DNA from: a virus
Direction: 5' to 3' (one strand)
Length of the DNA stretch: 45,728 bases
IMG/VR virus record: IMGVR_UViG_3300034118_001696
Location: 1 to 45,728 of that record
A program made the translations under genes and the position numbers. Each line of letters opens with the position of its first letter. The first letter of the stretch is position 1. This document shows positions 11,056 to 41,557 of this stretch, piece by piece. Below the pieces are notes generated by a model. The model was not told the DNA's origin. It worked only from the letters and a program-made list of their open reading frames with translations, and ran no database searches.

Positions 11056-14000
11056 TCATCTCGCGGAGAGTTGTGCGATGACTGGCGCCGCGTCGGGGTC
11101 TTGGGCTGCCTGCGCGAGCAGTCGCGTGTTTCTCGCGATCTCCAATTGAGCCTTGAGCGACGGGTTGTCTCGCCCTTGGAGGATGCGGAAGAACGTGTCC
11201 ACGCCCTCGCGGCTGCGGACGTCCGACGCACCAACCTGCCTGCGGTCTTGCTGGAGATTGTCGAGAGCGGGCTTCATGTTCTCCTGAAGGTCGGCTTGCA
11301 GGTTGAGCCGTCTGGCTGCTCCCTCCTCCTCGCTGATGAGCCCCTCGGACACTGCGCGGCTCACGGCGTCGAGGTCTTCGCGGAACTGAGCGACAGGGCT
11401 CTTTGCCTCGCCGCCGGGCAGCATCGATCGCCGAGCCTCTTCCTGTCCCTTGGCGAACTGCTCCTGAGTGATCAGACCTCGCGAGAAAGCCTCGCGGAGG
11501 TCGTTCATGCGATCACGGAGTGCGTTGACTGGGTCGAGGGGAATGCCAAGGCTCTGAAGGAGCGTGTCGCGGGCCTTCTGGGCCCCCTTCGCGAACTCCT
11601 CCTGCGAAATCTGGCCCTTCGAGAATGCCTCGTTGAGTTTTTGCAGCGACTCAGCCGCCGCTTGCGCTGGCGACTTGTCGATGCCGAGGGCGGACAACAG
11701 TTTGTCCTTGGCCTCCTTCAGACCCTTCGCAATCTCGTCAGGCGACAACGCGGAAGCGTTCTCCCTGATTCGCTCCACGGCGTCTTGGAAGTCTTCGGCC
11801 GGCGACTTGCTGATTCCGAGCGAAGACAGCAGCGAGTCCTTCTGCTTCTTAAACGCCTTATCTCGCTCGTCTGCGGTAATGACGCCGTCTTGGAACGCCT
11901 GATCGAGTTTCTCGCGAGACTCGGCCAGTTTCTGCGCCCCGGTCTTTTCGACGCCGAGGCTCTCCTTCACCTTGTCGGCGTTGTTCTTGATCGCCTTCTG
12001 GTATTCCTCGAACTCCTTCGGCGACAGCGTGGCCTGTATCTCGGCCATCGTTTTGCCGGTCACACCGAAGGCGTCGTTGATCTTGTCGACGCCGGACTGC
12101 ACTTGCTGCGCCGCCGTGTCTTCGACTCCAGCGGCAGAGCGACGATCGGAATCGAGTTTGCGGAGAGCCGCTGCTCCCTGCTCTTTCCCGACGGCGCCGC
12201 TCTCTATACCTGCTTCGATGCGACGCCGCTGCTCGCCGATCTTGTCGGCTGTTGACTGCCCGACGATGCTGTCGGACAAAGCCTTGCGGCCCTGCTCGAA
12301 CTCGTCCTTTGAGATATTCCCGGCGTCCCTCTGACGCTTCAGTTCGTCGAGCCTCTCGGCGTCGACTTGCTCGGCGGCCGGCTTGATCCCGAGGCCTTCA
12401 AGGAAACTCCGGCGGGCTTGCTTGAGCCCATCGGCATGCTGCTCGACGGAAATGACCCCGTCCTTTAGTGCCTGATCAAGGTCAGACACTGCATTCTTCA
12501 TCGCGTTCGCCGGGTCGACGGCAAATCCAAGCGATTGCGCGAGCGCGTCGGCGTTCTTCCTGATCTCGTTTTCGGCCTCACGGTCCGTGATCAGGCCTGC
12601 ATCGCGAGCCTGCGTGACGTCGCGGTTTCTCTCCGTGAACTGCTCGGTTGCAGTCTTGCCGATAATGCCCTCGCGGGCTTTCTTTCGCAGGTCTTTCTCT
12701 GCCTGCTCCTTCTCCTCGGGAGTGAGGTCTGTGTTGTTTCGGACCTTGTCGAGTTCCTTCTGGAACTTCTCGACAGGTGACAGAAACGCCTCTTCAAGAG
12801 TCTTGCGAATGTTGTCCGCGAAATCGAGTTCGACTTTCAGTTTGGCGTTCTTGCGATCGAACTCTCTCTGCACTTCCTCTGCGGCGACCGATGCCTGCTC
12901 TTGGGCGCTTGTCGTGTCCAGTTCCCTCTTGGTGCGATCGAAGGTCTCCCGGTCGATTGCGCCGGAAGCGAACGCCTCGTCGTTCTGCTTCTTCTTCTGA
13001 TCGAGTTCGATCTGGAAGTCGCCAGAGGCGAGCCGCTTCTTGATCTCGTCGAGAGCATCGGCGTACTCCTGCGAGTACTGCTTCGCCCTCGCCTTGACTT
13101 CGTCCGACCTCGGGAACAACTTGTCGCCAATCACAACGCCTGCGCCGATTTCTCTCGCGGACTTCGCGGCTTGCTTCGCTGCGCCGTCGAACTCTTTGAA
13201 GACCTCCAAGTTCCTCTTGAGCGTCTCCTCTGGACTCGCCTTGGCGATCTCTTCGAGGTCGCTCTTGAGGTTCTCGGCGACGGCCGACGACTCTTCGCGG
13301 AACTCTTCGAGCGAAATCTTTCCGTCGCCGAGGTTCTTCTGGAGTTCGGAGAACTTCTCTGTCGCGCTCGCTGCGGCATCTGCGCCGGCCGGGCCTAGTT
13401 GCGCCGCGCGGATGCTGAACTCGCCGAGTTCATTGCGGGCGTTGGCGATGACCTGCTGAGCAGTCTCAAACGAAGTGGCGTCGACCTCGGGCTCGATTGG
13501 GGCGCCGAAAACGTCGCTGACCGAGGCGACGATCTCCTTGATTCTCGCGTCGGCCGCGGCCATCTCCTCTTCGCTCGCGCCGGTTGCTTCGCCGAGCGTC
13601 GCCATGAATGAAGAGAATCCGCTGCCCATGCTCGACGTAAAACTATTCCATGTCTGGTTGAGATCGTCTCGCGTGACGCCGGTTGCCTCGGAGAGCGCCT
13701 CCAAGTCCTTTGCGAATCCGCTTTCAGTGGGCTTTTCGTTTTCCGCAACGACGGCGGCGAGTTCCTCCGTGCTTGCTCTGGCCCCGTCGATCTTTTTCTT
13801 CCCGTCTCCGAAGCCGGAAAAGAAGTCCGCAATACTGCCGCCCATCGCCCACAAGGCGGCAAGTCCAACCACGAGCAACTCGATACCGGCAACAAGAAGA
13901 CCGATCGGGCCAAGCCCGAACAGCCACGCAACGTGCATTGCGGCACACGAAGCAATCGTCGTCGCGGCGGCACTGAGCACCATTGCGACGTAGTACACGC

Positions 14001-25211: not shown

Positions 25212-27967
25212 CAGTGTCGCTCCCTCAGAAACCGCATCGTCTCGGCGATCTGAGTTGCCACGAGCGATCGCGTGTCTGTTTTTCGTCGCTTCAGTTCATC
25301 GCGAAGACCAGCGATCGCGGAGGTCGTGTCGCCGCCTGAGAACGGATACTTCTCGGTCTTCGATCCGTCTGGATGCTGGGCTTGCAGGTAGCCCTCGTCT
25401 GTCCCCACCTGCTGTGTCGTCCACGGAAAGTCGTCACCCTTGCTCCACGTCTGGACGCCGCCACCGTCGTCGGACTTGCCGCCGCCCTTGCCGCCGCGGG
25501 CCAGTTGGCCCTCGCGGGCGTCGTCGATGAACTTCTGGGCCTTCTTGTCGTCGCCCTTCTTCCACTCCATGTAGGGAGACTTCTTCGTGCCCTCGGGAGT
25601 ACCTCCGGTTCCTTCCTTGGCAACACGATCAAGCATCTTGCCGAGTACTGCCGACGAAGGAGGCTTCTTCGTGCCCTCGGGAGTACCTCCGGCTCCTTCC
25701 TTGGCAACACGATCAAGCATCTTGCCGAGTACTGCCGACGAAGGAGGCTTCTTCGTGCCCTCGGGAGTACCTCCGGTTCCTTCCTTGGCAACACGATCAA
25801 GCATCTTGCCGAGTACTGCCGACGAAGGAGGCTTCTTCGTGCCCTCGGGAGTACCTCCGGTTCCTTCCTTGGCAACACGATCAAGCATCTTGCCGAGTAC
25901 TGGAGACTTCTTCGCGCCTACAGGCTCGGCAGTGGCCGCTGCCTCGTCCTCTTGGCACTTATTGCCCGAACCGAACCTTCCGCCTTCGTCTCGCCCGCAG
26001 TCGCGACGCTCAGAGCGAGACGATTTCTTCGAGAGGTCTTTGATCCACACGTCGTGGTCTTCAGACTTTGTGAACGCTCCACCTGTCTTCTTAAATCCGT
26101 TTTCCTTCAGGGCCGCGTCGTGCTCAGGGCTCCACGACTGGACAGAGACCGTCTCAGAGCCTGTCGCGCGTGCTGCATCAAGGGCTAGTTGAACGACTTC
26201 CTTGCCTCCTCCATCGGGGTTGAAGTGAATGTTGCTTTTGCCCTTCACGCCGAACGGAGGAGAGGCCTTGCTGACGGTAAACTGCCCAGCCTTGCCGCTG
26301 ACACTGACACTGCCGTCGTCGAGCGATTGAGACTTCCATCCTCGAAACGCTCCGCCGGTTGACGCAACCTGCGCAGCAACCTTGTTTCTGTCCAATGCCG
26401 GCGACTTCTCCGACGTGCCTCCGCCTTGGCACTTGTTTTCGTTGTCAAACTTACCGCCTTCGTCTCGCCCGCAGTCGCGACGCTCGGCCAGAAACGACCG
26501 CAGGCCCCTCGCTCGCTCGACCACGTCGGATAGATCACGACGCTTCACGGGTCGAGCGGTCGCGACGTGCGCTTCGTAACTACGCTTCGCGACAGAGACG
26601 GAAGCATCGCCGTAGGCCGGGTAGGTCACGGGTCCGCAGTCCAGCAGCGCACGAATTTTTTTTACAATCCTAATTGACTGACCGTTTTCGGTCTTCCACT
26701 CCTCGCCGCCGTCAGGGCTCACGACGAACGAGAAACTTGAGCCCTTGAGGTCGCCTCTCTGCACGAGTTCAGCGAGATCGCCTCGCGACTCCGGAAGCAG
26801 GCATTCGTATCGCAGCCCCTTGTCGTCGACCGTCATCCGCATGGTTGTCGGGAAGCGGCCGAGGAGGTGGTCCGGCGAATGGTTGAAGAGACACCGCGTC
26901 TCCAGAGGCTTGCCGTCTTCGTCCTGCCGGTCCTTCACGATCTGAAATGCGTCGGGGTGGATTCGCTCAATGAAGTCCCCGAGCATCAAAGAATCCTTGC
27001 CGAACACGGCCGCGTACCCCACAAGGTACGTGCGAGGCTTTCCGGTCTCAGGATCAGCGCGTCGCTCGACGCGGAGCAGGTTGGGGTCGGCCTTTTCGGT
27101 GTAGGAGAAGTTGCCGAGGTATCGACGCTCCACTCCGGGGCGGACGTCGACGGCACGCTGCTCTTCACGCTCGGCGAAGTATTCGTCGATCACTTGCTTG
27201 ATCTCCTCGATGACCGGCTGCCACTCGGGCGACTCGCTCACTCGCTTCAGGCACTCGTCCTTCGTCGCCGGCATCTCGATGTACTCAACGGGAATGTCAC
27301 TGAGCATTCCCGAGAAGTCGTCACCGAGTCGTGTCGTGATGATCCATGTCGTGCCGACGTTCGCGTGTCCGTACAAAGCCTTCTTCAGGATAAGCGTTCG
27401 TATGTCGGTGCAATAAGAGATGAGATGCTTGTTGCTCTGGCGGTACGGCAGGCCAGAGAGAGCCGACATGACCCTGTCGAAGTCGAACACCACGTCGTCT
27501 TCGCCCTTGCTCGACCATACGTACTCGCTCTTCCCAGAGCCCGGCGCGCCGTGAACGACTTTCACGCGAGGCTTCATGCCGTGCGTCGAGCCGAATGGGC
27601 GTAGCGAGCGGCTGTCTTTGCGATCGGCCGCCTCCATCTGCTCGACGACCTTCTTGGCCCACGAGTAGCCGCTCGGACCACCCCACAGTAAATTCGCGAT
27701 TTTTCCATTTGATGGGTACCCGGCGTCGCCGCGGTTGAATCCGTCCGCTTTCTCGTCCGACTGATGTCGGTCGAAGAACGCCTTCATGCGTCGCACCGTG
27801 CTCGGCGAGACCTCGACGCCGTTCGACAAGTCTCTCGCGCGAGCGATGCCGACAGCGGTGCCGCCTCTGCCGTGCTCGCGGCGGAGTTTCAGGCCGTACT
27901 CCGCCTCGCGGCGGACGCCGTTTGGGGGCTTGAAGTCAATGTGCTTGTACTTCTCAGGCTTTGCCAT
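25211..27967 (-). CDS. Prohead protease polyprotein with kinase-like and GNAT-like domains
   Basis: I place the start at ATG 27967 (MAKPEKYKHIDFKPP), giving 918 residues; it has GAG 7 nt upstream and overlaps the previous gene by 14 bp. Domains: a conserved basic phage domain (1-115) with GGTAVGIARARDLSNG and NLLWGG; a P-loop domain (132-275, GAPGSGKS at 140-147); an HK97-type prohead protease (about 280-460, His363 in FNHSPDH and Ser411 in LKGSSFSF); cysteine element 499-513; a GNAT-like domain (about 530-645, ALKENGFKKTG); cysteine element 657-671; four near-identical 28-residue repeats (690-796); a Lys/Gly-rich tail ending MRFLRERH. The protease should cleave the capsid scaffold. That it also cleaves the cargo strings is inference. 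Confidence 0.88.
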   Translation of the reverse strand: MAKPEKYKHIDFKPPNGVRREAEYGLKLRREHGRGGTAVGIARARDLSNGVEVSPSTVRRMKAFFDRHQSDEKADGFNRGDAGYPSNGKIANLLWGGPSGYSWAKKVVEQMEAADRKDSRSLRPFGSTHGMKPRVKVVHGAPGSGKSEYVWSSKGEDDVVFDFDRVMSALSGLPYRQSNKHLISYCTDIRTLILKKALYGHANVGTTWIITTRLGDDFSGMLSDIPVEYIEMPATKDECLKRVSESPEWQPVIEEIKQVIDEYFAEREEQRAVDVRPGVERRYLGNFSYTEKADPNLLRVERRADPETGKPRTYLVGYAAVFGKDSLMLGDFIERIHPDAFQIVKDRQDEDGKPLETRCLFNHSPDHLLGRFPTTMRMTVDDKGLRYECLLPESRGDLAELVQRGDLKGSSFSFVVSPDGGEEWKTENGQSIRIVKKIRALLDCGPVTYPAYGDASVSVAKRSYEAHVATARPVKRRDLSDVVERARGLRSFLAERRDCGRDEGGKFDNENKCQGGGTSEKSPALDRNKVAAQVASTGGAFRGWKSQSLDDGSVSVSGKAGQFTVSKASPPFGVKGKSNIHFNPDGGGKEVVQLALDAARATGSETVSVQSWSPEHDAALKENGFKKTGGAFTKSEDHDVWIKDLSKKSSRSERRDCGRDEGGRFGSGNKCQEDEAAATAEPVGAKKSPVLGKMLDRVAKEGTGGTPEGTKKPPSSAVLGKMLDRVAKEGTGGTPEGTKKPPSSAVLGKMLDRVAKEGAGGTPEGTKKPPSSAVLGKMLDRVAKEGTGGTPEGTKKSPYMEWKKGDDKKAQKFIDDAREGQLARGGKGGGKSDDGGGVQTWSKGDDFPWTTQQVGTDEGYLQAQHPDGSKTEKYPFSGGDTTSAIAGLRDELKRRKTDTRSLVATQIAETMRFLRERH
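25580..25900 (-). repeat. 84-bp coding tandem repeat, four copies
   Basis: Four copies of a 28-codon unit (VLGKMLDRVAKEGTGGTPEG, then TKKPPSSA) with almost no DNA differences; one copy changes Thr to Ala. Near identity points to recent expansion or gene conversion. Each unit has a short amphipathic helix and a Gly/Pro-rich hinge. Confidence 0.92.
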
Positions 27968-30900
27968 CTTCCCACTCGTACTCGTCGAGGTCTCCTTCGT
28001 CCCAAATCTCTTCCCACAACTCGTCGAACCTTGCGAGGTCCGCTGGAGAGAGCCAGCCATCGCCGGCGCCGAGCGGCATGTCACGACGACTCGTGCCGAA
28101 CTTCTTCAGCCACCTCGCCATGATCTTGGCCTGCGGAGAGCCCGGGTCTCCGAGACGGAACGAGATGTCGACCTCGCGGCCGTTATTTGCCCACCACTCC
28201 GTGCCCTCGCGGGTGGCGTGCAGATCGAGAAGGCTCTTCGCGTGCGAGAGCGAGTCGGGGAGTTTTTCGCGGATGTCGCCCGGGATAGGCGCGTCGAAAC
28301 CCATCCGAGGCCAGATCGTGTATCCCTTCCAAGACTTGTCAGACTTGCTGCCGGCGGCGTTGAACCGGACCTCGGAGAAGCCCGAATTTCTCGCCTCTTC
28401 AAGGCTCTTCGCCATCACTTCATAGAAGGCCCTCGCCGCTGCGTGCTTCTTGGCGGGAGTGTCCGCCGCGCCGGGCTCGACCGTGATCGTGCTGTGGTAC
28501 AGGACAGGCTCGCCGTCGCTGTTCGTTCCGACCGCGGATGACCCACTCAATCCGTAGTCGATGCCGCCGAGCGGCTTCTCCCAACTCACGAGCACAGGCA
28601 TGCTCGCGCCGGAGAACGATGTCGCCATGTCCGGTGCCGGCCGCATGAAGACTGAGCCGCCCTCGGCTCCGGCAATGCGAACGACGTCTGACTGATCGAT
28701 CTTCAGCGTATCCAGACTCTTGGAGACGTCGCCGCTGACTCGAACGCTCGCGGCGGGCTGTGAGTCGCCTTCCTCTTGGCACTGATTCCTCGGACCGAAC
28801 CTGCCGCCTTCGTCGCGGCCGCAGTCGGCCGCACGGCCTTCCTTCTTTGGCTTTGGATCGTAGCCCCACTCGTGAATGCTGTTCCCGTCATTGAATATGT
28901 GACGGGCGGGCACGACCGCTGACACGATCTTGTAATTCCCGCCAAGGGTCGACTCTCCGTGCTGCTTGGCGTACTGCTTGTTGATCGTGACCCAGTCTCC
29001 GGGAGATATAGCGTCGTCTGCAATCTCGGGGACCGCGCGGAAAATTCTCACCGGCTCGTCCGGCTTGCCTTTGAGTCGCCGAACCACTCTGGCCGACTCG
29101 TCGTCGAGCGACTTATCTCCGTGCCCGTAGAGTCTGCCGGCGTCGTCTGAGTACACGTCGTCCGGGTAAATGCCCGCAAGGCTGTCGGCCGACTTGGCGT
29201 AGCCGTCCGCCTGCGGAGCCTTGTGACTGCCTCTGTATCCGGCGCATTCATTGCCGGCACCGAACCTGCCGCCTTCGTCGCGGCCACAGTCGGCATCTCG
29301 CGACTCAAGGTCATCGATCCAGCCGACCCAGTCGCGGGACTTGTTTCGCTCTCGAAGGCGAGGAAGCAGCCTCTGCATTTTCTGGTACTGGCGATAGCCG
29401 GCGCTGTCTTTCTTCGAGAAGTCAATACTCATGCCAGTCGAAGTGCCGTTGGCATCCCACCAGAGGCGGCCCTCGCGAGTGGAGACGATGTCCTGCACGT
29501 TCAGCGGCTCGCCGGCGTCCCACTTCGCTCGGGCATCATCCGACAGTCCGACAGAATCAACGTCTTCCTCGATCCGACTGCTCGTGGTTGAGTTAATCTC
29601 CCCGTCGAAGCCGAACTGCGGCCAGAGCCTGTAGCCCTTGAACTTGTCCAACTCGTCGCCCGTCCCGACGGCCACAGTTTCTGCCGCCGTAGCGCCGAGC
29701 CTTTCTGCCGTCATCAGCGAATCGAGCATTCGCTCCATCATTATCGACGAGATTCTGCTCGTCATTGCGTCATCTGGCGAGTCTGTGTTCAGCACACTCT
29801 CGGCGCCATCTCCGGGCGGCCAGACGTCGAGCAAGTCGTAGTTGACAAAGAACCCTCCGTCTCCGTTGTCGAGCACGGAGACGCCCGAATAGACCTTCCA
29901 TTCGTCGGGCTTGTCTGGGCTCACTGGCATCAACAACTCGACCTTGATCTCGCCGCTGTTTTTCTCAGACGAGATCGTCATTTCGCCGGCCCTGACGGCT
30001 CCGCCGCCAATAGTCGCGACGTCGTCGATCGTCGCCCGGCCCGGAAGAATCTCGCTCATCGTCTTGGCGATCTGCTTTGGGCCCTCAAATTTCACCGACG
30101 CCATCGCCTCTCCGCCCTTGATTGGCGAAGACTTCTTCAGACGCCGCGAATCCCACGCCTTGTCGCGGCCGCTCGCCTTCCAAGACTCATCCGGCTTGGC
30201 AGTGGCAGTCCCTGCGCCGGCTTGGCAGTCGTTGTCGTTGCCGAATCGCCCGCCCTCGTCGCGTCCACAGTCGGCTTCGCGGGATTCGGCGTCCTCGAAG
30301 AACGCCCGCGACTTGTTTCGCTCCTTGAGTCTGGCGAGTCGCTTCTTTGACTCTTGGAATCTGCGGTACCCGAGCGAGTTCTTGTCCTTCAGGTCGAGCG
30401 TGAGGGTCACGTCACTGCCGTTCTTGTCCCACCACCTCTCGCCTTCGCGAGTCGAGATTAACTGCTGGATGGTGAGATTCTTCACGCGGGCGCGCAGGCC
30501 TCGCAGGACTGTCTCCTGCGGGATTCGAGTCGATCCGGCGGGCGGGATCGGCACGCCGGCAGCCTTCAGCACGATCTCGTCCGGAACCTTGCTCAACTCT
30601 CGCAGTGGTACGGGCGCGTCGAACCCGAACTGCGGCCAGAGTCGGTAGCCCTGCACGAACACATCCGTGGAATCGCCGGCGGCTTGCATCAAGGCAGAAG
30701 AGACTCCGGCCGATTCGGCGGCCGACAGCGACTCGACGAACTGCTCGCTGAGCAGGCTCGCCACGCGGAGCCGGTCCTTCTGGTTTGCGTTAGGCGACCC
30801 GGAGACAGACATCGGCGTTGAGAGGCTGACGTAATTCAGCACCGTCTCGCCGTTGCGGTCGCGAGAGAGCATCGTGTTCGTCGTGACGTACCCCTCGTCC

Positions 30901-33287
30901 GGATCGGCAACGTCCGAGGCGGGGTCGATTGGTATCGACGCTGTGACGAACACCTCGGTGTCGCTGTACGGAGCGACGCGAACGGCGGCGCCGCGAGTCT
31001 TGCCACCTCCGATCGCGACGATGCTATCGAGCGAGTCGACGCCGAGCGTGCTCATCGCGCTCGCGAGTTCGCCGGCGCCTTCGATCTTCAAAGACCGAAG
31101 TTTGTCACCGCCTCTGATGGGAGGCTTCTCGGCGAGTTCCGACGACGACCACGAAACAGTGCCGGTCTGCTCCTTCCACGAGTCGTCTTGCTTTTCCGGA
31201 GCGGCCACTCCGTCGCCGTCGGCTTGGCACTTATTGCCCTCGCCGAACCGGCCGCCGGGTTGCCGGATGCAGGCGGCATCGCGTTGCTCGAAGTCAAGGG
31301 CCGCGAAGTTCGCTCGCTCCTCGACGTCCTCTTCGAGTGCCTTCAGGACGTCGATCATGTCGACGCCCAGTTCGTCGAAGTTCGACTCCCAAGCCGCCTG
31401 CTCGGCGTCGAAAGACGAGTTGTCGAAGTCGTCGACCCCTCCGTCTGCGTCTCGTCGCGACGCGGGTTGGAAAGGCTTCTCCCTCTTGATCCTTCCGGAA
31501 ATCACGCCCTCAGCCGCGGCGGAGAAAAGAGAGTTCTCGGTGATATTCGTCTTCGCGCCGAGGTGCTTCCAGAGACGCTTCTCGTACTGCCACAACGCTG
31601 CCTGTATCTCGTCGATGTCGGCTCGACGGCCGGTGCGTCGCTCGACCTCGTCTTGAACCCTGCGAAACACCTCGCGGATGTTTCGCCTCGCCCTGTCTGT
31701 CTTTGGGTCTTGCTGTTCAAGGATCAGGCTCTTGAAAAGAGAGTTGCCAGCCTGATGCATCGAATGGACAGCCGGGTCCGGGTGCTCGCCGTACCCGCCA
31801 CCGCTCGGCCTTTTCACCTTCTGGTGAGATCGCTCGGCGGCCGTCGCCCAGATGAACGCAGCGCCGTTTTCCTCGATCACTCCTGTTCTTTGCTGAATCT
31901 TGAGCGACCTGATCAGATCAGCCTTCGTTATGCCGTGAGACTTGTCGACACCGAACAGGAACGCCTTGCTCCACGACCTGCCCTCAAGCGCGGTCAAGGC
32001 CGCTTCGGCTCGCTTCTTTGCAGATTCTGGGGTCGATCTCGTGATGAGTTCGCCGCTCACTCGCCCGACCGATCGCATGAGCCAGCGATCCATCGTCAGA
32101 AACTCGTGTCGCCCGGACAGATTCGCAAAGAATGAGCCGATCTTCGGGCCGAAGATTGCGGCAACCGGCACGACTTCGTCACGGAGTTCTCCGGACGTCA
32201 TCGTCTTTTTCTTGCCCTGCTTGTCGACCGGCATAGACCACGGCGCGGAGCCAGTCTTGGCTCTCCACTCGTCGACCTTTGATTTGCCGGCGAGCCTCTC
32301 CAGTGTCTTTTCGATCGTTCCGGCCGGAGCGTATCCAGACAACAGGCGACGCGTTCTGTCCTTGCCGAATGAATCAAGAAGCCCTTGAAACACCTTGAGG
32401 GACGTCGTGACATCGCGAGCGCCTCCGCCGTAGTCCGAAGGAACCACGGTTCCGTGTTCCTTGAACATGCGATACAGGTCGTCTGCGTCCCGCAGGTTTG
32501 CGTCCGGCCCCTGTCCGCTGCTTGTGATCGCGAGCAGCGTCGTGAAAATGAATCGCGAGTTTTCGTCTGACTCGAACTCGGGATGCCGAGTCGTCATCTG
32601 ACGCATCGTGCTTTCGAGGTCGGTGCTGTAGAAGCCCGGATCAACACCTAGCACGTCGTACGCGTGAATCGCGTCTTCTGTCAGCGAGTCGGCGAGATAC
32701 GCAATCTGCTGCTCTGGCATCTCGGTCGCGGCCGTGTCGATGATCGAGCCGGGGCCGGACGCTCCCGTCTTCCTTCGCTCCTCTTCGTGCCGATTGGACA
32801 AGTACAGCGCGACTGATTCGTGAGCGACGAACTGATCGTTCTGCCTCAAGTCCTCTGGCGTGAACACGTCGTCCGTTGAAGCAATCTTGCCGTCGCTGAC
32901 GTACGGAGGGCTGCCGTCTTTCGGCTTCTGGACGCGGCCCTTCGCTCTCCTTATGAACTCTCTGTCCCACAGGTCTGTCGTCGACCCGGGCGCAGAGCCC
33001 TCCGGCTTGGGGTTCTCCTTGAAGTCATCGATTGCTCGCTGCCTCGCCTCTTCGTCCATCACGGCGACCCGCTTGCCGCCGCCGAGCATCACGTCGACGT
33101 TTCTCTCTTTGGCTTTCTTCGCGGCCACGGCGACGTCTTGTCCACCGCCATTCGTCGCGCCGCAGTCGTTCCCGTCGCCGAAACGCCCGCCGTCTTGGCG
33201 GTCTGCGTCCGTGCATTGGCCTGAGTTGCGAGCCTCGACGAGGCCGCGATACTCGGCGAACGAGAACTTCTTCTCAAGAAAGATCAT
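27954..33287 (-). CDS. 1777-residue head-cargo polyprotein
   Basis: Starts with ATGA overlap to the portal stop. Order: leader 1-24; degenerate cysteine element 25-42; a large domain (45-612) with a helix-hairpin-helix-GPD-like centre at 377-409 (GPKIGSFFANL, then TMDRWLMRSVGR, Asp400 at the glycosylase aspartate position); element 673-687; unknown module A1 (700-1000, GYRLWPQFGFD); element 1007-1021; module A2 (1035-1325); element 1334-1348; an ADP-ribosyltransferase-like domain (1350-1480: FRAVP, GDWVTINKQYA, IHEWGYD); element 1489-1503; module A3 (1510-1777, GYTIWPRMGFD). The helix-strand before each GYxxWP (for example FYEVMAKSLEEARNSGFSEV) resembles the C-terminal half of GNAT folds. Probably packaged and injected; activities untested. 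Confidence 0.8.
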   Translation of the reverse strand: MIFLEKKFSFAEYRGLVEARNSGQCTDADRQDGGRFGDGNDCGATNGGGQDVAVAAKKAKERNVDVMLGGGKRVAVMDEEARQRAIDDFKENPKPEGSAPGSTTDLWDREFIRRAKGRVQKPKDGSPPYVSDGKIASTDDVFTPEDLRQNDQFVAHESVALYLSNRHEEERRKTGASGPGSIIDTAATEMPEQQIAYLADSLTEDAIHAYDVLGVDPGFYSTDLESTMRQMTTRHPEFESDENSRFIFTTLLAITSSGQGPDANLRDADDLYRMFKEHGTVVPSDYGGGARDVTTSLKVFQGLLDSFGKDRTRRLLSGYAPAGTIEKTLERLAGKSKVDEWRAKTGSAPWSMPVDKQGKKKTMTSGELRDEVVPVAAIFGPKIGSFFANLSGRHEFLTMDRWLMRSVGRVSGELITRSTPESAKKRAEAALTALEGRSWSKAFLFGVDKSHGITKADLIRSLKIQQRTGVIEENGAAFIWATAAERSHQKVKRPSGGGYGEHPDPAVHSMHQAGNSLFKSLILEQQDPKTDRARRNIREVFRRVQDEVERRTGRRADIDEIQAALWQYEKRLWKHLGAKTNITENSLFSAAAEGVISGRIKREKPFQPASRRDADGGVDDFDNSSFDAEQAAWESNFDELGVDMIDVLKALEEDVEERANFAALDFEQRDAACIRQPGGRFGEGNKCQADGDGVAAPEKQDDSWKEQTGTVSWSSSELAEKPPIRGGDKLRSLKIEGAGELASAMSTLGVDSLDSIVAIGGGKTRGAAVRVAPYSDTEVFVTASIPIDPASDVADPDEGYVTTNTMLSRDRNGETVLNYVSLSTPMSVSGSPNANQKDRLRVASLLSEQFVESLSAAESAGVSSALMQAAGDSTDVFVQGYRLWPQFGFDAPVPLRELSKVPDEIVLKAAGVPIPPAGSTRIPQETVLRGLRARVKNLTIQQLISTREGERWWDKNGSDVTLTLDLKDKNSLGYRRFQESKKRLARLKERNKSRAFFEDAESREADCGRDEGGRFGNDNDCQAGAGTATAKPDESWKASGRDKAWDSRRLKKSSPIKGGEAMASVKFEGPKQIAKTMSEILPGRATIDDVATIGGGAVRAGEMTISSEKNSGEIKVELLMPVSPDKPDEWKVYSGVSVLDNGDGGFFVNYDLLDVWPPGDGAESVLNTDSPDDAMTSRISSIMMERMLDSLMTAERLGATAAETVAVGTGDELDKFKGYRLWPQFGFDGEINSTTSSRIEEDVDSVGLSDDARAKWDAGEPLNVQDIVSTREGRLWWDANGTSTGMSIDFSKKDSAGYRQYQKMQRLLPRLRERNKSRDWVGWIDDLESRDADCGRDEGGRFGAGNECAGYRGSHKAPQADGYAKSADSLAGIYPDDVYSDDAGRLYGHGDKSLDDESARVVRRLKGKPDEPVRIFRAVPEIADDAISPGDWVTINKQYAKQHGESTLGGNYKIVSAVVPARHIFNDGNSIHEWGYDPKPKKEGRAADCGRDEGGRFGPRNQCQEEGDSQPAASVRVSGDVSKSLDTLKIDQSDVVRIAGAEGGSVFMRPAPDMATSFSGASMPVLVSWEKPLGGIDYGLSGSSAVGTNSDGEPVLYHSTITVEPGAADTPAKKHAAARAFYEVMAKSLEEARNSGFSEVRFNAAGSKSDKSWKGYTIWPRMGFDAPIPGDIREKLPDSLSHAKSLLDLHATREGTEWWANNGREVDISFRLGDPGSPQAKIMARWLKKFGTSRRDMPLGAGDGWLSPADLARFDELWEEIWDEGDLDEYEWEDGKA

Positions 33288-33694
33288 CGCCAGACAGACC
33301 TTGCGATCGCCGTGATCTCAGGCGAGTACGTCTTCCCAGACAATTGCCCAGCGATGTACTCGGCGATGAACTCACGGCCATTGACGGCTGCGTATCGAGA
33401 CACCTGCGACTCGATGAGAGATCGCTGCTCGTCGGAGAACGTCACCAGTTCAGACTTTCGGTATGACTCAGGGTCTGACTGGTAGTGAAGCCTGTGGCAC
33501 GCCTCGTGGAGAAGGGGGTTGCCGCTCGAAGTCCAACCGTCGGAATCATCGGGCTCACCGGCTTCCGGTGACACATAGAGCGTGTCGTCGTCTGGCGAAT
33601 ACACGGCGTAAGCATCGCCAATGTCACGGCACTCGACGCGAGGGAAGTAGCCCCCAAGATGATCGCGGCATGCCGCCTCGGCGGACGAGATCAT
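33284..33694 (-). CDS. HExxH peptidase domain, possible separate product
   Basis: An internal ATG at 33694 is in the portal frame and overlaps the stop of the nested small gene as ATGA. It would give a 136-residue protein (MISSAEAACRDHLGGYFPRV) with HEACH at 63-67 and a downstream REFIAEY helix that can supply the third zinc ligand, typical of gluzincins. Coupled start is plausible, but there is no good ribosome binding site of its own. A fused-only product remains possible. Confidence 0.5.
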   Translation of the reverse strand: MISSAEAACRDHLGGYFPRVECRDIGDAYAVYSPDDDTLYVSPEAGEPDDSDGWTSSGNPLLHEACHRLHYQSDPESYRKSELVTFSDEQRSLIESQVSRYAAVNGREFIAEYIAGQLSGKTYSPEITAIARSVWR

Positions 33695-36451
33695 TCGGGA
33701 GACGGCTTCTGATCTTTGTAGAGTTGCGGCATCTGGTCCGGGCCGTCCTCGTACCAACTCGGATCGAGGCTCTCGCCCTGACTCTTCGCCACTCGCTCGA
33801 AGTACGCCCGCATCGCGCGGTACTTCTCCAGCAACGTCCTCTTCGCCATCGGCACGTCGAACCGCTGCGGATCGCTGCTCATGCTCATTCTCCTCGGCGG
33901 GATTATACGCTCGGACGGTCTTTTTGCCGTGCTTTGACAACTCGGCAGCGTTGTCTGCCTCTTGCAGATCAGGGCCGTCGCCATAGACCTGACTGACCTG
34001 AGCGTCTTTCCTCGCGCGAGCGAAACCGCGGTCCCAGTTGTCCGGCTTCCGCGAGTCGCCGCTCTCGTACTGGACCCAAGTCTCCTTGAAAGTTCCGAGG
34101 TTGAACACGGCGAGTTGCCCGGCCTTGCGTCCGGTTTCGAGGGCATCCTCGGCCCTGTCGGGCGAAAACCTTGTGGCAATGTCGATGTAGAAATCGTCTC
34201 CTGCTCGCCAGCCGCCAACGTACCGATCGGCATTGTCGAGCACGTCTTCGTTATCGCTGAGCCACGACGCGAATGCGTCGCGTCCTTCTCTCGTGCTGAT
34301 CTCGCTGGCCTTGATCTGTAACGACCGTCTGCTGTCGTTCTGGAACTCGCTGACCATGATTCCGTCCGACGGCGACTCGGCGGAACTCGGGTCAAGCGTG
34401 AAGCCATCTGGGTTCTGCGAGATTTTGTCGAGCAGTTTCTCGACGTCGTCGCCGCTGACGCGTCGCGATGGTGTCTTCGTCGCAGAGGGTGGCTTCTCGG
34501 AGGCAACGGCACCGCCGCCGCCTGTGCCATCAGCCTGACACTGATTCTTCGGCCCGAACCGGCCGCCGTCGTCTCGCCCGCAGTTGTCGCCGAAGACTCG
34601 CTGCTCTGTTTCTTCCGGAGACCTCGCCTCGATGAGTTTCTCCGAGGGAATCACCCACAGTTTGCAGATGCCGTCCGGATTGATTCCGCCCTTGACGATC
34701 TCGCACGCGCCGCCTTCCTCGTAGTACACGCAATTGCGGCACACCATTCCGCGATTCGCGAACGGCGAACGAGGCGAGTAGTGAGCGTCGACCTGCGTCC
34801 ACCGGCCTTGCTTCCTCGCGATCTCCTCCTGAGCCTTGTAGAGCGCCTCGCTCTGCGGCGTGAGCCCTCGGCTCTCCTCGACCGCTGGCTTCTCCTCCGC
34901 CGGCTTGAGTTTCGACGCCTCGATGCCAACCTCGTCACCCGTCTCCTCGTCGACGACGAGAGCGAGCGGCTTGCCGGGCTCGACCTCGATCTTCTCGCCC
35001 GACTTTAGATCGAGCGTGCCTTGCTCCATCACATGCTTGACGCGACCAAACTTGCCCTTCGCGTACTCGACGAGCGGCTCGGCCTTCTTCTCGGACGGCT
35101 CGCCTTGCTCAGACTCCATCGGAGTCTTGCCAGTCTTGACCCCGGGCAGGCTCGGCACGCCACCTGCGGCCTCTGGCGGGGGTCCGGGCATACCGGGCAT
35201 GCCGCCGGGCTGCTCCTTGGGCTTGAGTGCCTCCTCGATCGGCTGAAGGTTCATCGCGACCAGATGATGATCGCCGATCTCGCCCATGGGCGGCAGATTC
35301 TCGGCCCTGCGGCACTCGTTGTGCGTCATCAGTCCGAGGTTGAGCATCGTGGAATAAAACGCGGCACGCGCGTTCGAGTTACCTCGCATCAGGCCGCGAG
35401 TGTCGAACTCAGCGAAGAACACGTCGTCGTTGTAGATCAGGCTGCGGGAGATCGCGCTCTCGATTCGACGCAGCCACGGCACGAGCGTGTACGTGACGAA
35501 CTCTTGTCCGTTCTCCTCGATGCTGCCGGACGACTGGCCCTGAATCAGCGAAAGAGGCAACCTGTAGACCCTCGCGATCTCCTCGGACTGGAAGCGTCGC
35601 GTGGACTCGTACTGACTCTGCTCCGCATTGAAGCCGACCTGCTCGACTCGCAGTCCATTAGTGAGGATCGCCGTTCGGCTCGCTCGGTCAACGCCCCTGT
35701 GAATCCTCTCCCAGTTGTCACGAAGACGCTCGGCCGCCTCCGGAGAAAGCGAACTGTCCGTCTGAAGCACGATCCCCGGGCGAGCGGAGTTCGCCCAGAA
35801 CCTGCCGGCGTGAATCTCGCAGGCTCTCGCGAGCGCGATCGCCTCGCGGGCGATCTCCACCGGGACCATGCCCTTGATGCCGTCCGGCTCCGGAGTCCAC
35901 CGGACGTGCATGATGTCGTCCTGAGTGTATTTCTCGGCGTGGCCGTTCTCGGGATTCATGTACGAATACCGCAGCCGGCCGTTCTCCAGCCGCTCCACGT
36001 CCATGTTCGACGGGTGAAGATTGTCGAGCGCTGACACGGCTCCGTACCTTCCCGATCGAATGCGGCTATAAGAATTACCCCAAAGGGTAAGGTTCATAAC
36101 CATCTGCTCGAAGAACTCGAACTTGGTCTGCCATTCGTTCGGCGCGAACGACAAGACCTTGTACAGAGGAATGTCCGAGGCGAGTTCCTTGTACCCGTCC
36201 TTGGTGCGGCGATAGACATGCAGAGGCATGGCCGCGATGGTCTCGGCCAGAATGCGACACGCGGCGAGCACGACAGTGCTCTGGAGGGCCGTGTCCGGCG
36301 TGATCCGGATGTCGGCAGACGTCTGCGTCTTGCCAGTGAAGCCGTCTTCTCCGAAGAGAAGATTGTTCCAGTACATGGAGCGAATCTCGGGCTCCGCGTG
36401 CCCGCGTTCCGGTGTCCAGACAATGTCGGACAAGACCCGCTCTTCGCTCAT
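33284..36451 (-). CDS. HK97-type portal with long C-terminal fusion
   Basis: The frame encodes 1055 residues. Residues 1-405 are the portal: VVLAACRILAETIAAMPLHVY, TLWGNSYSRI, SARPGIVLQTD, SSGSIEENGQEFVTYTLVPW. Then a Gly/Pro linker, a four-cysteine HiPIP-like patch (Cys571, 574, 583, 596), the cysteine element at 624-638, a recognisable but unnamed phage domain (670-800, DGFTLDP...DGIMVSEF...YVGGWRAGDDFYID), and an HExxH domain (920-1055, HEACH at 982-986, Glu1027 or Glu1031 as third ligand). Residues 860-919 look like out-of-frame translation and overlap a separate small gene, so the portal and peptidase parts may be made as one chain or separately. Usual portals are 400-500 residues. Confidence 0.85.
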   Translation of the reverse strand: MSEERVLSDIVWTPERGHAEPEIRSMYWNNLLFGEDGFTGKTQTSADIRITPDTALQSTVVLAACRILAETIAAMPLHVYRRTKDGYKELASDIPLYKVLSFAPNEWQTKFEFFEQMVMNLTLWGNSYSRIRSGRYGAVSALDNLHPSNMDVERLENGRLRYSYMNPENGHAEKYTQDDIMHVRWTPEPDGIKGMVPVEIAREAIALARACEIHAGRFWANSARPGIVLQTDSSLSPEAAERLRDNWERIHRGVDRASRTAILTNGLRVEQVGFNAEQSQYESTRRFQSEEIARVYRLPLSLIQGQSSGSIEENGQEFVTYTLVPWLRRIESAISRSLIYNDDVFFAEFDTRGLMRGNSNARAAFYSTMLNLGLMTHNECRRAENLPPMGEIGDHHLVAMNLQPIEEALKPKEQPGGMPGMPGPPPEAAGGVPSLPGVKTGKTPMESEQGEPSEKKAEPLVEYAKGKFGRVKHVMEQGTLDLKSGEKIEVEPGKPLALVVDEETGDEVGIEASKLKPAEEKPAVEESRGLTPQSEALYKAQEEIARKQGRWTQVDAHYSPRSPFANRGMVCRNCVYYEEGGACEIVKGGINPDGICKLWVIPSEKLIEARSPEETEQRVFGDNCGRDDGGRFGPKNQCQADGTGGGGAVASEKPPSATKTPSRRVSGDDVEKLLDKISQNPDGFTLDPSSAESPSDGIMVSEFQNDSRRSLQIKASEISTREGRDAFASWLSDNEDVLDNADRYVGGWRAGDDFYIDIATRFSPDRAEDALETGRKAGQLAVFNLGTFKETWVQYESGDSRKPDNWDRGFARARKDAQVSQVYGDGPDLQEADNAAELSKHGKKTVRAYNPAEENEHEQRSAAVRRADGEEDVAGEVPRDAGVLRASGEESGREPRSELVRGRPGPDAATLQRSEAVSRMISSAEAACRDHLGGYFPRVECRDIGDAYAVYSPDDDTLYVSPEAGEPDDSDGWTSSGNPLLHEACHRLHYQSDPESYRKSELVTFSDEQRSLIESQVSRYAAVNGREFIAEYIAGQLSGKTYSPEITAIARSVWR
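33691..33882 (-). CDS. 63-residue gene nested in the portal frame
   Basis: In the +1 frame relative to the portal. ATG 33882 (MSSDPQRFDVPMAKRTLLEK) has GAGGAG at 33895-33890 with a 7-nt spacer, one of the best sites in the window, and the stop overlaps the peptidase ATG. The product looks natural (helical, with SWYEDGPDQMPQLYKDQKP at the end), while the portal frame over the same bases gives Arg/Gly/Glu-rich filler. Function unknown. Confidence 0.6.
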   Translation of the reverse strand: MSSDPQRFDVPMAKRTLLEKYRAMRAYFERVAKSQGESLDPSWYEDGPDQMPQLYKDQKPSPE

Positions 36452-38067
36452 AGCACGAGAATCTCCGGCTCGGGAGTCTTAGCGGCGGCCTCGGCGTCGC
36501 TGGCCCCGGCAAGTGCCATGACGAGCGCGACGATGCCGTCAACTCGGGCAGGGCTTGTGCTGGATGGCTTCACGACCTTGATGTACCCCTCGGCCGACGT
36601 CTTCGTCACCGCGTTGCCGGCCATCCAGTTGATGATCGGGTTGTCTTGAGTCCTCAGCCGGCCCTGACTGATCAATGTTTCGAGCAGACGCGTCGACGAG
36701 TTCATCGAGGCGAACGACTGTGAAAAGCCTAGCACGGTCAGGCCTTCCGCCTGAAGTTGTTGCGTCAGGTAATGGGCGTTGTGTGGGTCGCAGAGAATCT
36801 TCGCGACCTGACGCTCCTTCGCGAACGCGAGGATGTCTCGCTTGATGAACTCGTAGTCGCACGTATCTCCCGGCGTCATCACCAAGCCTGTCGACGCGTC
36901 TTTCGCCCACACCGTGTACGGCACTTCTTCTTTTCGCTGGTGCGCGTTGTCGGCTGGTATCCAGAACTTGAACAGGCAGTCGTAGACGTCGTCGTGGGCC
37001 TTCGAGACCGCCACCAACGCGTTGACGTCCCATGTCTGGGCGAGGTCGAGCCCGCAGTACCAGACGCGAGACTTGTCGAGGTGTCCCGACTTGCCCTTGC
37101 ACTTCTCCCACTGGGTCAAGTTCACGAACTTGTTTTCGCCGTGCACCCAGACGTTGAGGCGGTATCTCAAGAAGCCGGCGAGTTTCGAGCCGCCAGACCG
37201 CTCGGCTTCCAGCACGTCGGCTTTGAAAGTCTCCTCGTCCATCGTGACACCGAACGACGGATTCGCGGCACGCCAGACGCTCGGACTCCTGTAGTCGTCG
37301 TCCGGGGAGGCCGCGCGGACGTATGCGAAAAACTGCGAGTCGTACGACGGGTCTTCCATGACCTTGATCGCCTGATCATGCAGTTCGTAGCCGATCGAGT
37401 CTCGGTCGATGCCGGCTGTTGTAATGGCGAGCACGAGGCCCTGACTTCGAGAAATCGAACCGTAGCGGACGGCGTCCCATAGGGCCCGGTCGCGGCTCTG
37501 ATGTATCTCGTCATAACAGAGCGAGTGGATGTTCAAGCCTTCCTGACGGCCGGCGTCCGACGAGATCACCCGCCAGAAAGAGTTTGTCGGGACGCAGGCG
37601 ATCGTCTTGCGAGAGTCGACGATCTCCAGCATCGACGACAGGTACGGGCTCGCCTGTACCAACTCCTTCATTTGCTTGTAGACGATGCTCGCCTGATCTC
37701 GCGAGTTTGCAGCACCGAAGCACTCGGCCGATGGCTCGCCGTCTGCGACGAGCATGTAGAGGCCGATGCCGGAGAGGAGGGTCGACTTGCCGTTTTTCTT
37801 CGGCACCTCGATGTACCCGACACGATACTTTCGCGTGTCGGAGTCAGTTCGCATCCACCCGAAGAGTTCCTCGATGACGTCATGCTTCTGCCACGGCAGC
37901 AGCGTGAACGGCTTGCCGGCGAAGCGACCCTTCGAGTGGATCAGAAACTTCTCGAAGAACCCGACCGCGTGCGCGGCCTTGGTCTCGTCGAAGTAGAACG
38001 GCTCGCCTTGTTCAACCGCCTCGTCGCGAGATATACGCGGCAAGAGGATTTTCGGGGGCAGAGGCAC
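36448..38067 (-). CDS. terL: Terminase large subunit
   Basis: A 539-residue protein of the HK97/P27-associated large-terminase type. The ATPase has an atypical Walker A EVPKKNGKS at 87-95 and Walker B SLCYDEIH with Asp186-Glu187, then the ITTAGI coupling motif. The C-terminal nuclease shows CGLDLAQTWDVNALV and later acidic residues. It pumps DNA into the prohead and cuts concatemers. Its start overlaps the small terminase by 56 bp, and its stop overlaps the portal ATG as ATGA. Confidence 0.95.
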   Translation of the reverse strand: MPLPPKILLPRISRDEAVEQGEPFYFDETKAAHAVGFFEKFLIHSKGRFAGKPFTLLPWQKHDVIEELFGWMRTDSDTRKYRVGYIEVPKKNGKSTLLSGIGLYMLVADGEPSAECFGAANSRDQASIVYKQMKELVQASPYLSSMLEIVDSRKTIACVPTNSFWRVISSDAGRQEGLNIHSLCYDEIHQSRDRALWDAVRYGSISRSQGLVLAITTAGIDRDSIGYELHDQAIKVMEDPSYDSQFFAYVRAASPDDDYRSPSVWRAANPSFGVTMDEETFKADVLEAERSGGSKLAGFLRYRLNVWVHGENKFVNLTQWEKCKGKSGHLDKSRVWYCGLDLAQTWDVNALVAVSKAHDDVYDCLFKFWIPADNAHQRKEEVPYTVWAKDASTGLVMTPGDTCDYEFIKRDILAFAKERQVAKILCDPHNAHYLTQQLQAEGLTVLGFSQSFASMNSSTRLLETLISQGRLRTQDNPIINWMAGNAVTKTSAEGYIKVVKPSSTSPARVDGIVALVMALAGASDAEAAAKTPEPEILVL

Positions 38068-38476
38068 CGGGAGCCTTGATCGAGGAGCGTGCGGCGGGTG
38101 TCATGCCGAACTGTCGCTCGATCGCGAGCATGTCGGCCCGAAGAGATTTGATCAGCGTGGCCTCCGCGGTGATCTGGCTGTAGCCAGTCTGTGTCACCTG
38201 CGTCCAACCATGTTCCTTGCAGTGCGCTTCGAGCGCGAGCCACTGCTCGTACATCAGGCAGTAGCGTTGAAGCGGCTGCCGATCAGCCTGCGTGAACACG
38301 CCCATCTTCGAGAGCAGGTCGACCATCTCGTCCCACTTGTCGAGCGCGATTCCGGCAAGGCCAGCCGGCGGGTTGGGGTCAGCGGGCGGCGGCTGCGGCT
38401 CGTCGGCGTTCAGCGGGCGCTGGCCCGGGTTGCCGCGAAGAACCTTGAGCGACGTCGGAGTCGGGTGTCGTCCCAT
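38012..38476 (-). CDS. terS: Terminase small subunit, P27 family
   Basis: A 154-residue protein. ATG 38476 (MGRHPTPTSLKVLRGNPGQR) matches the usual family start; the frame back to 38716 crosses repeat-rich DNA and is not family-like. Helical residues LDKWDEMVDLLSKMGVFTQADRQPLQRYC form the core. It binds the packaging site and recruits the large subunit. The first gene after the 0.7-kb non-coding locus. Confidence 0.9.
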   Translation of the reverse strand: MGRHPTPTSLKVLRGNPGQRPLNADEPQPPPADPNPPAGLAGIALDKWDEMVDLLSKMGVFTQADRQPLQRYCLMYEQWLALEAHCKEHGWTQVTQTGYSQITAEATLIKSLRADMLAIERQFGMTPAARSSIKAPGASAPENPLAAYISRRGG

Positions 38477-38743
38477 TTTGCCTGTTTTTGGCCTCGAAAC
38501 CCCTACCCCAAAATTCTGCGGGCGTTCACGCTGTCGCGCAGCGTGGGGCTTGCGTTTGAAACCCCCGGAAAAACCGACACTCCCCGGGGGTGGGTCGCCA
38601 TATGCATTCTCAGGCGTCGAGGTGGCGACGTAAAGTTCCCAACGCATATCGAAAAGTCGACGTTTCGCGCTTTGTTTTCGATATGACTGGGGCGAGAGAC
38701 TTCGAGGTTGCAGCACCTTCGAGGTTCTGCACGCATCGACCTT

Positions 38744-38778
38744 GCTTGTAAGAAAAAGCGCGCGTTTTTCTTACAAGC
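38744..38778. repeat. Perfect 14-bp-arm hairpin
   Basis: Arms 38744-38757 and 38765-38778 are perfectly complementary around the 7-nt loop GCGCGCG. The arms end in five A and five T. It could be a two-way terminator protecting the locus or a protein-bound cruciform. Confidence 0.75.
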
Positions 38779-38971
38779 GTCCTCTGGTGTCGCGACTGGC
38801 ACTCTCGACCCTTGCCCTCACACGCACAGGCGCGAGTGCATGCCTGCCCGCGCGCGTGCGTTGCTTCGGAGGTTTGTGTTTCCCGGGAAATCGAGGGTGT
38901 GTGACAGATTTCTGTCAGAGCGATGACAGGGACCAGCGGGACCAAATTTGGATTTCGATTTTGGTCCCCCA

Positions 38972-38996
38972 TAAGTCCTTGTCAGATAACGACTTA
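38972..38996. promoter_or_regulatory. Dyad TAAGTC-N13-GACTTA, copy 1
   Basis: Perfect 6-bp inverted arms at 38972-38977 and 38991-38996 with a 13-bp spacer, 3 bp after a GGTCCC hexamer. The same arms and spacing occur again 116 bp away. Operator-like or packaging-protein site. Confidence 0.7.
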
Positions 38997-39087
38997 CGTC
39001 ACGAAAATGCCTCTGGGACCGGGGACCACTCGTGCGCACGCCTACGCGTGTGTACGCGCATGCGTGGTTTTTTGGTCCCACAGCACT

Positions 39088-39112
39088 TAAGTCCAATGCT
39101 GGCAATGACTTA
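39088..39112. promoter_or_regulatory. Dyad TAAGTC-N13-GACTTA, copy 2
   Basis: Arms 39088-39093 and 39107-39112 with the same 13-bp spacing as copy 1 but a different spacer sequence, so the arms are what is conserved. Offset from copy 1 is 116 bp, close to 11 helical turns, which places both on the same DNA face. Confidence 0.7.
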
Positions 39113-39187
39113 GGAGATACCAGATCGCTCAAAATCCTTTGGTCCCTTTGGTCCCTTCATTATTTGAGTTCTAGCACCCCGATTTTT

Positions 39188-39532
39188 TCAGGCTACCTCG
39201 ACACTCCCATCAACCTGATCAGGCTTCTCAGGGCACGCTGGGGCCCTCAGATCGCGTTTTGTCTTCTTCCCATGGCACCTCCTACAGAGGGTCTGTAGGT
39301 TGTCCAGTGAGTCTGCCCCACCTGCCCGTTTTGCCAAGACGTGGTCAACTTGCGCATCTCCACTATCTTCGCAAATCTTCCCACAGTGCCTACATTGCCA
39401 AGCGTCCCTGACGAGCACCTGACGTCGGAGCGACGACCATTCGGGCCCTCCATACCCTCGGACGTACGACGAGGGCCTCGCCTCGCGATACCGGGGCTTC
39501 TTCGCGCGATGGAACTCAAGTCGCTTGGGCAT
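39188..39532 (-). CDS. HNH endonuclease
   Basis: A 114-residue protein with a zinc-bound HNH fold: Cys47-x2-Cys50, AQVDHVLAKRAGG with catalytic His64, Asn79 in SLDNLQ, and Cys83-x2-Cys86-His87. HNH proteins beside terminase genes help cut cos sites in HK97-type phages; the same role is inferred. ATG 39532 overlaps the previous stop as TGATG. The gene ends where the non-coding repeat locus begins. Confidence 0.9.
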   Translation of the reverse strand: MPKRLEFHRAKKPRYREARPSSYVRGYGGPEWSSLRRQVLVRDAWQCRHCGKICEDSGDAQVDHVLAKRAGGADSLDNLQTLCRRCHGKKTKRDLRAPACPEKPDQVDGSVEVA

Positions 39533-40436: not shown

Positions 40437-41557
40437 TAGCCGTCCTCGTGCCTTGCGAGAAAGTACTTCATAGCGAGATCGCTGCTCTCTCGCGTGCTCC
40501 ACACGAGAAGTCCGTCTTCTCTATGCATCAACGGGTACTCGCCGCCTTGCATTGGCGGCATGAACTTGTATCGCTCCTCGTATTTTCTATTTTCTCTTGT
40601 CCCGTGCCACCTGTGATACACAGTTCCCGACACATGACCGACTCTTGCTTTGAGTGACAGCATGTGTGCTCTGTAAGACTTGTACGAATCAGTCTCGGAA
40701 AACGCGTGGCTATCGCTCTTGGGAAGTCTCGGCACGCCCGGCGTCATGGCGAAGACAAACGCCGCATCGCCGCCGCCAAGTGGATGCCGCTCGTAAAAGC
40801 CACCGCAGCGATTGAAAAAGTCGCGAGTCATACCCCACGCGAAGCCCGGGTGGTATCGTCCGAGAAGCGGCTGCTCGCCTTTCTCGATGGCGAACACAGA
40901 GGGCTCTCTCGTGAGTTCGATTCTTCCGTCCCGAGAGAGCCACGCGGCGTTCGTGAATGGCTGGATGACGTCGTGAGATTCGAGCGATTCGCTGATTGCG
41001 TCGAAGACGTCGCGGCGAGTGAAGAAGATGTCAGCGTCAAGGAACAGGATTTTGCTGCGAGAGCCCATTCTCGCCGCTATGTTCCAGACGTTTTCCTTCA
41101 AGAAGAGCACAGAGTCGCTCTCGAACAGGACACACTCAGCACCGGGCGGAAGTTCGGCCGGCTTTTGCCCCGGGAGCGTCACCTGCACGACGACTGGCCT
41201 CAGGCCCGCCTCGATCACGGACTTGCATGTCTCGTACAGGAGCACCGGCGTCGTCTTCCATCCGGCCGGGTTGTAGTGGCACATGACAACGTCGAGGTCT
41301 CCACGCGTTGCCTGCCAGTAGCCGCCGCCTCGCCTGCGGCTCGCGGCTGAGATGAGGCGTTCTGCCGTGTCATTGCCGATCGAGAAGCCTCGCTTGGAGG
41401 CCTCTTCGATAACCCACGACGAGAGCCTCTCGTCCGAGTTTCCAGAGTCGGCGACGCGGATTCGTGCTTCGAGCGTCTTGCCAGTCAGGCGAGACTTCGT
41501 GAGTCGCTCGCATATCCTGCGAAGCCTGCTGCCGATCAACTGCTGACGCCGCAGCAT
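40436..41557 (-). CDS. GT-A glycosyltransferase
   Basis: A 373-residue protein. ATG 41557 (MLRRQQLIGSRL) is preferred over 41572 because GGAGAG lies 7 nt before it. After an N-terminal helical region of about 75 residues, a GT-A domain starts: LDVVMCHYNPAGW, RPVVVQVTLPGQ, KILFLDADIFF with the DxD at 174-176, HPGFAWGMTRDFF and GGGDAAFVFAM with an acidic residue for catalysis. It overlaps the fibre gene by 22 bp and the methyltransferase start by one base, so the three are translated together. Confidence 0.85.
   Translation of the reverse strand: MLRRQQLIGSRLRRICERLTKSRLTGKTLEARIRVADSGNSDERLSSWVIEEASKRGFSIGNDTAERLISAASRRRGGGYWQATRGDLDVVMCHYNPAGWKTTPVLLYETCKSVIEAGLRPVVVQVTLPGQKPAELPPGAECVLFESDSVLFLKENVWNIAARMGSRSKILFLDADIFFTRRDVFDAISESLESHDVIQPFTNAAWLSRDGRIELTREPSVFAIEKGEQPLLGRYHPGFAWGMTRDFFNRCGGFYERHPLGGGDAAFVFAMTPGVPRLPKSDSHAFSETDSYKSYRAHMLSLKARVGHVSGTVYHRWHGTRENRKYEERYKFMPPMQGGEYPLMHREDGLLVWSTRESSDLAMKYFLARHEDG

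Follow-up and report, generated by a model that had tools for sequence, protein, structure and literature searches.

In phage lambda, the R sites are located between cosN and terS. The cos site of phage HK97 has 10-nt 3' overhangs (PMC9410871; one sentence there gives 12), and HK97 TerS binds 15 bp at +15..+29, with C:G at +21 and then an A-tract (PMC11331095).

The DNA analyzed here, referred to as the window, is one entire IMG/VR contig of 45,728 bp. Its large terminase matched HK97 TerL (6z6d, E 1e-50) and was of the TerL_ATPase/TerL_nuclease type, and a portal gene was located downstream of TerL in the packaging region. The gene order HNH - cos - terS - terL was that of HK97, with the HNH gene adjoining cos and terS, and terS beginning ~50-60 nt after the cut. 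Unlike HK97, TerS of the window is a Terminase_4 protein without a detectable match to the HK97 TerS structure (gp1), the two being compared by sequence alone, and the gap between HNH and cos measures approximately 400-1030 bp here and carries repeat arrays. The structural region also contained very large open reading frames (33284-36451, 27954-33287, 11056-16602 and 3049-9699), and the portal domain made up only residues 60-385 of a 1055-aa protein. Coordinates of the features discussed below are listed in Table 1.

Table 1. Features of the packaging region and of the terL insert in relatives. Positions refer to the window unless a relative is named.
Feature	Position	Strand	Basis
Large terminase, HK97 type	36448..38067	-	Profile and structure-sequence match
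Small terminase (PF05119 Terminase_4)	38012..38476	-	Profile match
Predicted TerS recognition block (GCCCGCAGAATTTTGGG region)	38508..38524	-	Conserved GCCYGC and A/T tract at +13..+27
Predicted 10-nt 3' cos overhang (CCACGCTGCG on - strand)	38537..38546	-	Contig ends of relatives (8 left, L063 right)
Conserved dyad CCCACCCCCGGGGAGTG, between promoter and cut	38578..38594	-	Alignment
Sigma70-like promoter TTTACG-N17-GAGAAT before cos/terS	38606..38634	-	Spacing read from sequence
Nested 229-bp inverted repeat containing all 8 hexamers	38928..39156	-	RNA and DNA folds
Outer hexamer pair GGGACC-AGC-GGGACC	38929..38943	+	Hexamer search; pairs with 39141-39155 in fold
Single GGTCCC (+ strand letters)	38963..38968	-	Predicted pairing partner in L007 likewise a hexamer
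25-bp element TAAGTC-N13-GACTTA, copy 1	38972..38996	.	Motif search
Inner hexamer pair (start-to-start spacing 7 bp)	39015..39027	+	Invariant in L006 and L007
Single GGTCCC (+ strand letters), inner arm	39074..39079	-	Invariant in L006 and L007
25-bp element TAAGTC-N13-GACTTA, copy 2	39088..39112	.	Motif search
Outer pair GGTCCC-TTT-GGTCCC	39141..39155	-	Hexamer search
HNH endonuclease, packaging-associated	39188..39532	-	Profile match
terL hairpin in relatives	L010:755-834; L013:737-813; L015:733-811; L019:6265-6343; L028:2396-2471; L057:3736-3810; and others		

The position of the cut was taken from the ends of relative contigs. Eight of these (L010, L011, L013, L015, L016, L017, L021 and L023, from seven metagenome projects, with L010/L011 and L015/L016 near-duplicates) started at one identical column of the upstream alignment, which indicates fixed genome ends as in HK97. 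Their clades have TerS/TerL 61-73% identical to those of the window, and the shared column corresponds by homology to window 38536 on the - strand. Since none of the contigs from the window's own clade stops at 38536, cos in the window is positioned by homology. In L138, whose phage type is that of L015/L016, the sequence runs on across the cut and includes the one at which those two contigs start. The right end was represented by a single contig, L063 (75.6 kb), which ends ...GCTTACCGGC; in L146, GCTTACCGGC is followed by CCACACCGGG and then by the cut column. L063 stops ten bases before the left-end column, which is the gap that would result from the loss of a 10-nt 3' overhang during end repair. 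The predicted likeness to the HK97 overhang depends on this one contig. G004 was dropped as a right cos end because its far end stops short of HNH, and the ends of G036 were dropped as physical ends because the assembly is permuted.

Conserved blocks were found on both sides of the cut. In almost every member, the family block at +13..+27 is GCCYGC(A/G)AAATTTT or close to it, and in the window it includes GCCCGC and the A/T tract; its C/G run and A/T tract resemble the HK97 TerS site in composition and predicted distance, and it is likely the TerS site of this phage. The dyad has the family form CCCACCCC(C/G)GGGGAGTG. Most relatives have a CTTTAC box whose distance from cos hardly varies (family promoter form TTTAC[TG]-N17), and terS starts approximately 45-85 nt after the cut across the family (window: cut 38536, terS start 38476). 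GGGACC was absent from all of the conserved cos blocks (promoter, dyad, cut and TerS-site block). Based on these alignments, an HK97-type cos with a 10-nt 3' overhang is predicted at 38536/38546 in the window phage, and the cos module, as far as its sequence goes, is a further member of the HK97 kind with a different TerS sequence. The preliminary description had placed the region of interest in the gap where HK97-type phages carry cos, and by homology this gap does hold cos. A cos site can be placed to the base in an uncultured phage group of ~90 kb from contig ends alone, and the use of relatives' contig ends as a cos map is reusable for other uncultured phages.

The second element of the gap is a cluster of hexamers, from which the cut maps by homology about 390 bp away. 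GGGACC/GGTCCC occurred 19 times in the window, with 8 of the 19 copies within 38929-39155, four per orientation (+ at 38929, 38938, 39015 and 39022; - at 38963, 39074, 39141 and 39150). The hexamer was not enriched over the whole window (19 vs. a shuffle mean of 26.8 ± 4.7), so eight copies in 227 bp are far above chance (Poisson P ~2e-12; ~8e-7 corrected for all hexamers and places). Within the window, a higher density was found only for a coding repeat at 22683. The cluster is non-coding and lies between HNH and TerS. Its count, its position next to the terminase genes and its excess over chance had all been stated in the preliminary description and were reproduced here from gene coordinates and statistics; the pair spacing of 7-9 bp given there is right, start to start, for three tandem pairs. 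A DNA search of the cluster region against named phages returned no match.

The hexamers are mutually inverted rather than independent tandem sites, and base-pair as one nested hairpin, which had previously been missed. The 229-bp repeat folded at -109.8 kcal/mol as RNA (z -8.0) and with z -7.0 as DNA, and its outer arms (38928-38946 and 39138-39156) were 89% complementary. TAAGTC-N13-GACTTA occurred twice in the window, both times inside the hexamer cluster. Position 1 of L004, a contig of the window's clade, corresponds to window 38928, exactly at the foot of the hairpin; such a start may reflect a stop of the assembly or of a polymerase. A separate perfect 14-bp inverted repeat (GCTTGTAAGAAAAA, 7-nt spacer) was noted on the cos side of the array at 38744-38778, and is partly degenerate in L006.

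Among close relatives, all 8 hexamers were kept in L034 and 7 in each of L006 and L008. The more diverged L007 is borne by a 90,351-bp contig, G001, whose ends overlap by ~176 bp and which is accordingly taken as a complete genome of ~90.2 kb. In the main blocks of the alignment, the DNA of G001 and that of the window were 70-81% identical. The cluster of G001 is at the matching place, with eight hexamers at 40769-40984 and a further copy at 41095, and elsewhere in that genome there were scattered singles only; TAAGT-N15-ACTTA was confined to the cluster in G001 and the window alike. Identical columns between the window and L007 were 23/24 in the TAAGTC/GACTTA arms, 32/48 in the hexamers and 75/185 (41%) in the rest of the cluster. 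Hexamer offsets 0, 76, 128 and 187 were exactly common to both. L007 is without the window's second hexamer and instead has one at offset 34. To judge from these comparisons, the hexamers, the TAAGTC/GACTTA elements and their geometry are under constraint, on DNA or RNA.

More distant members of the family have arrays of other motifs. The expectation that related phages would carry the hexamer cluster at the same place held for close relatives, including G001/L007, and failed for relatives with 60-70% identical TerS, in which GGGACC was absent from the HNH-terS gap. Many relatives have tandem pairs of another motif in this gap, mostly 8-10 bp apart (about 9): AGGTCTAAG in L025, AGGTTTAAG in L028, GGGGTATCA in L047, AGATTCCAG in L063, AGAATCCA in L009 and GAGGTCTCCC in L143. 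Shuffles of the relatives' gaps gave 0.1-0.3 pairs on average. Pairs were weak or absent in L035, L138, L145 and L055, with no exact 7-mer pair. TAAGT-N15-ACTTA recurred in L019 (two copies), L022 and L138. In most relatives, the pairs are flanked on one side or both by CCCTATATAGGG-like boxes; these palindromes, of which a gap often had two, were noted next to the pairs in L019, L022, L028, L033, L065, L138 and L146, and none was present in the gap of the window or L007. A fold scan found strong long hairpins in some family members only. Paired repeats in a constant position are more widespread in the family than the hairpin is, as would fit a DNA-binding protein with drifting specificity. 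The array, its conserved geometry, the turnover of its motif and the homologous contig ends are direct observations. An MT-A70-like methyltransferase reading frame (DPPW motif, identified by eye) was also present between array and cos in L025 (4846-5463) and in the same region of L035, with a possible remnant in L028.

On the sequence comparisons above, the cluster is read as a fast-evolving, single-copy, putative protein-binding array, iteron- or operator-like. The main rival to a DNA-binding array is an RNA element, in which the region would encode a structured RNA, a hairpin of ~229 nt within the 3' part of the HNH transcript (for example a small RNA or a site of RNase III processing), with the hexamers as its helices. 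The L007 equivalent folds with z -6.2 in the same nested layout, its hexamer at offset 34 occupies exactly the site that, according to the window fold, should pair with the hexamer at 187, and several window-to-L006 changes preserve pairing through G-U. However, distant relatives keep the tandem pairs with weak folds (L009, L025, L028 and L047), and their copies can all face one direction; there was no Rfam match at gathering score, and the RNAalifold covariation term was unfavourable (+2.93, on only three sequences). A structured RNA is considered an unlikely explanation.

Recognition by the terminase was proposed in the preliminary description, where the hexamers were taken as sites comparable in concept to the R sites of lambda cosB that may define the packaging start. 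Such cosB/R-like sites, defining or enhancing the start, would suit short repeated motifs in the same intergenic region as cos, and the hexamers are conserved in relatives with at least 95% identical TerL. L004, which starts at the cluster edge, has the only contig end that could favour this view. The cluster, however, is on the HNH side of the cut, so that terS is on the opposite side and, unlike in lambda, the repeats are across the cut from it. Relatives whose TerS is 60-70% identical have the cos core in common with the window and are without GGGACC there, the motif not being conserved along with the terminase, and HK97 TerS needs just its 15 bp (PMC11331095). The location of the cut, the block that resembles a TerS site and the turnover of the motif all speak against terminase recognition, which we regard as improbable; given the distance of the cut and the known HK97 arrangement, the repeats most likely serve in control or replication as a site of their own, and not as a packaging signal. 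A MITE-like mobile element or decayed insertion with flanking inverted repeats is suggested by the 229-bp unit and its 19-bp imperfect terminal inverted repeats, and is very improbable with place and geometry kept in a diverged genome. Other IMG/VR occurrences of the 18-mer GGGACCAAAGGGACCAAA were unrelated: the sequences in question had no such cluster and matched none of HNH, TerS and TerL.

The reading that we prefer is that the HNH-terS gap probably holds two separate cis elements, an HK97-type cos and a lineage-specific paired array likely bound by a phage protein. The cos site and the repeat array, which had been merged, are now told apart. From these comparisons we infer an overhang in the window's phage, protein binding to the array and a role for the array, as follows. 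Downstream of a late promoter and the dyad block, the DNA would be cut with its 10-nt 3' overhang, TerS would recognize the A/T tract just downstream of the cut, and packaging would start at this cos. Next to HNH, the array would present a single-copy set of lineage-specific motif pairs ~9 bp apart (GGGACC in the window), in the window accompanied by the two TAAGTC-N13-GACTTA elements and arranged as a nested inverted repeat. Cooperative binding of the paired units by a phage-encoded DNA-binding protein is the likeliest mechanism, and the bound array could serve as a replication origin of the iteron type or regulate the boundary of the upstream and late operons. The array is a lead to a DNA-binding protein or an origin. 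More tentatively, such arrays may form a new class of fast-evolving paired repeats, in which the motif turns over, position and approximate spacing persist, and an origin or switch is coupled to the packaging locus; we consider this possible and rather doubtful.

A further element was observed within terL of many relatives and is absent from the window itself. An insert of 46-51 nt interrupts the Walker A codons directly after PKKN-Gly and forms a hairpin with an 18-22 bp stem and a 5-6-nt loop. Pairing held in 96% of cells across 14 sequences, nine pairs were changed on both sides, and this covariation was reached by 0 of 500 shuffles. Insert lengths span all three frames; where the length is a multiple of three there is an in-frame stop (L010, L012 and L013), and in most relatives the frame resumes at a Gly codon (GGC/GGA/GGT) after the insert. 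Exact matches to a 33-mer of the hairpin were limited to 13 IMG/VR contigs, of which 12 were known relatives already. The insert is a candidate translational bypass, similar to T4 gene 60, in which matched GGA codons flank the 50 nt that are bypassed. In Streptomyces phage Hau3, a bypass in the terminase has been suggested (PMC5009743).

The array itself was compared with iteron origins of plasmids and P4-like elements, as generally known. A literature search for iterons near cos found nothing specific, and a scan of the genome contigs with TerL for prophages or hosts found none. Detrended GC-skew extremes of two complete relatives were not at the array, so that skew, unlike at an iteron origin, gives it no support, and initiator binding is putative here; the array was the lowest-GC stretch in G017 and not outstanding in G001. 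Like iteron origins, it has short direct repeats that are paired in tandem and occur in both orientations, palindromic boxes, a lineage-specific motif and one locus per genome, and the genome encodes a Prim-Pol. Repeated binding sites near a phage functional locus are known in general, and the array is a variant of these.
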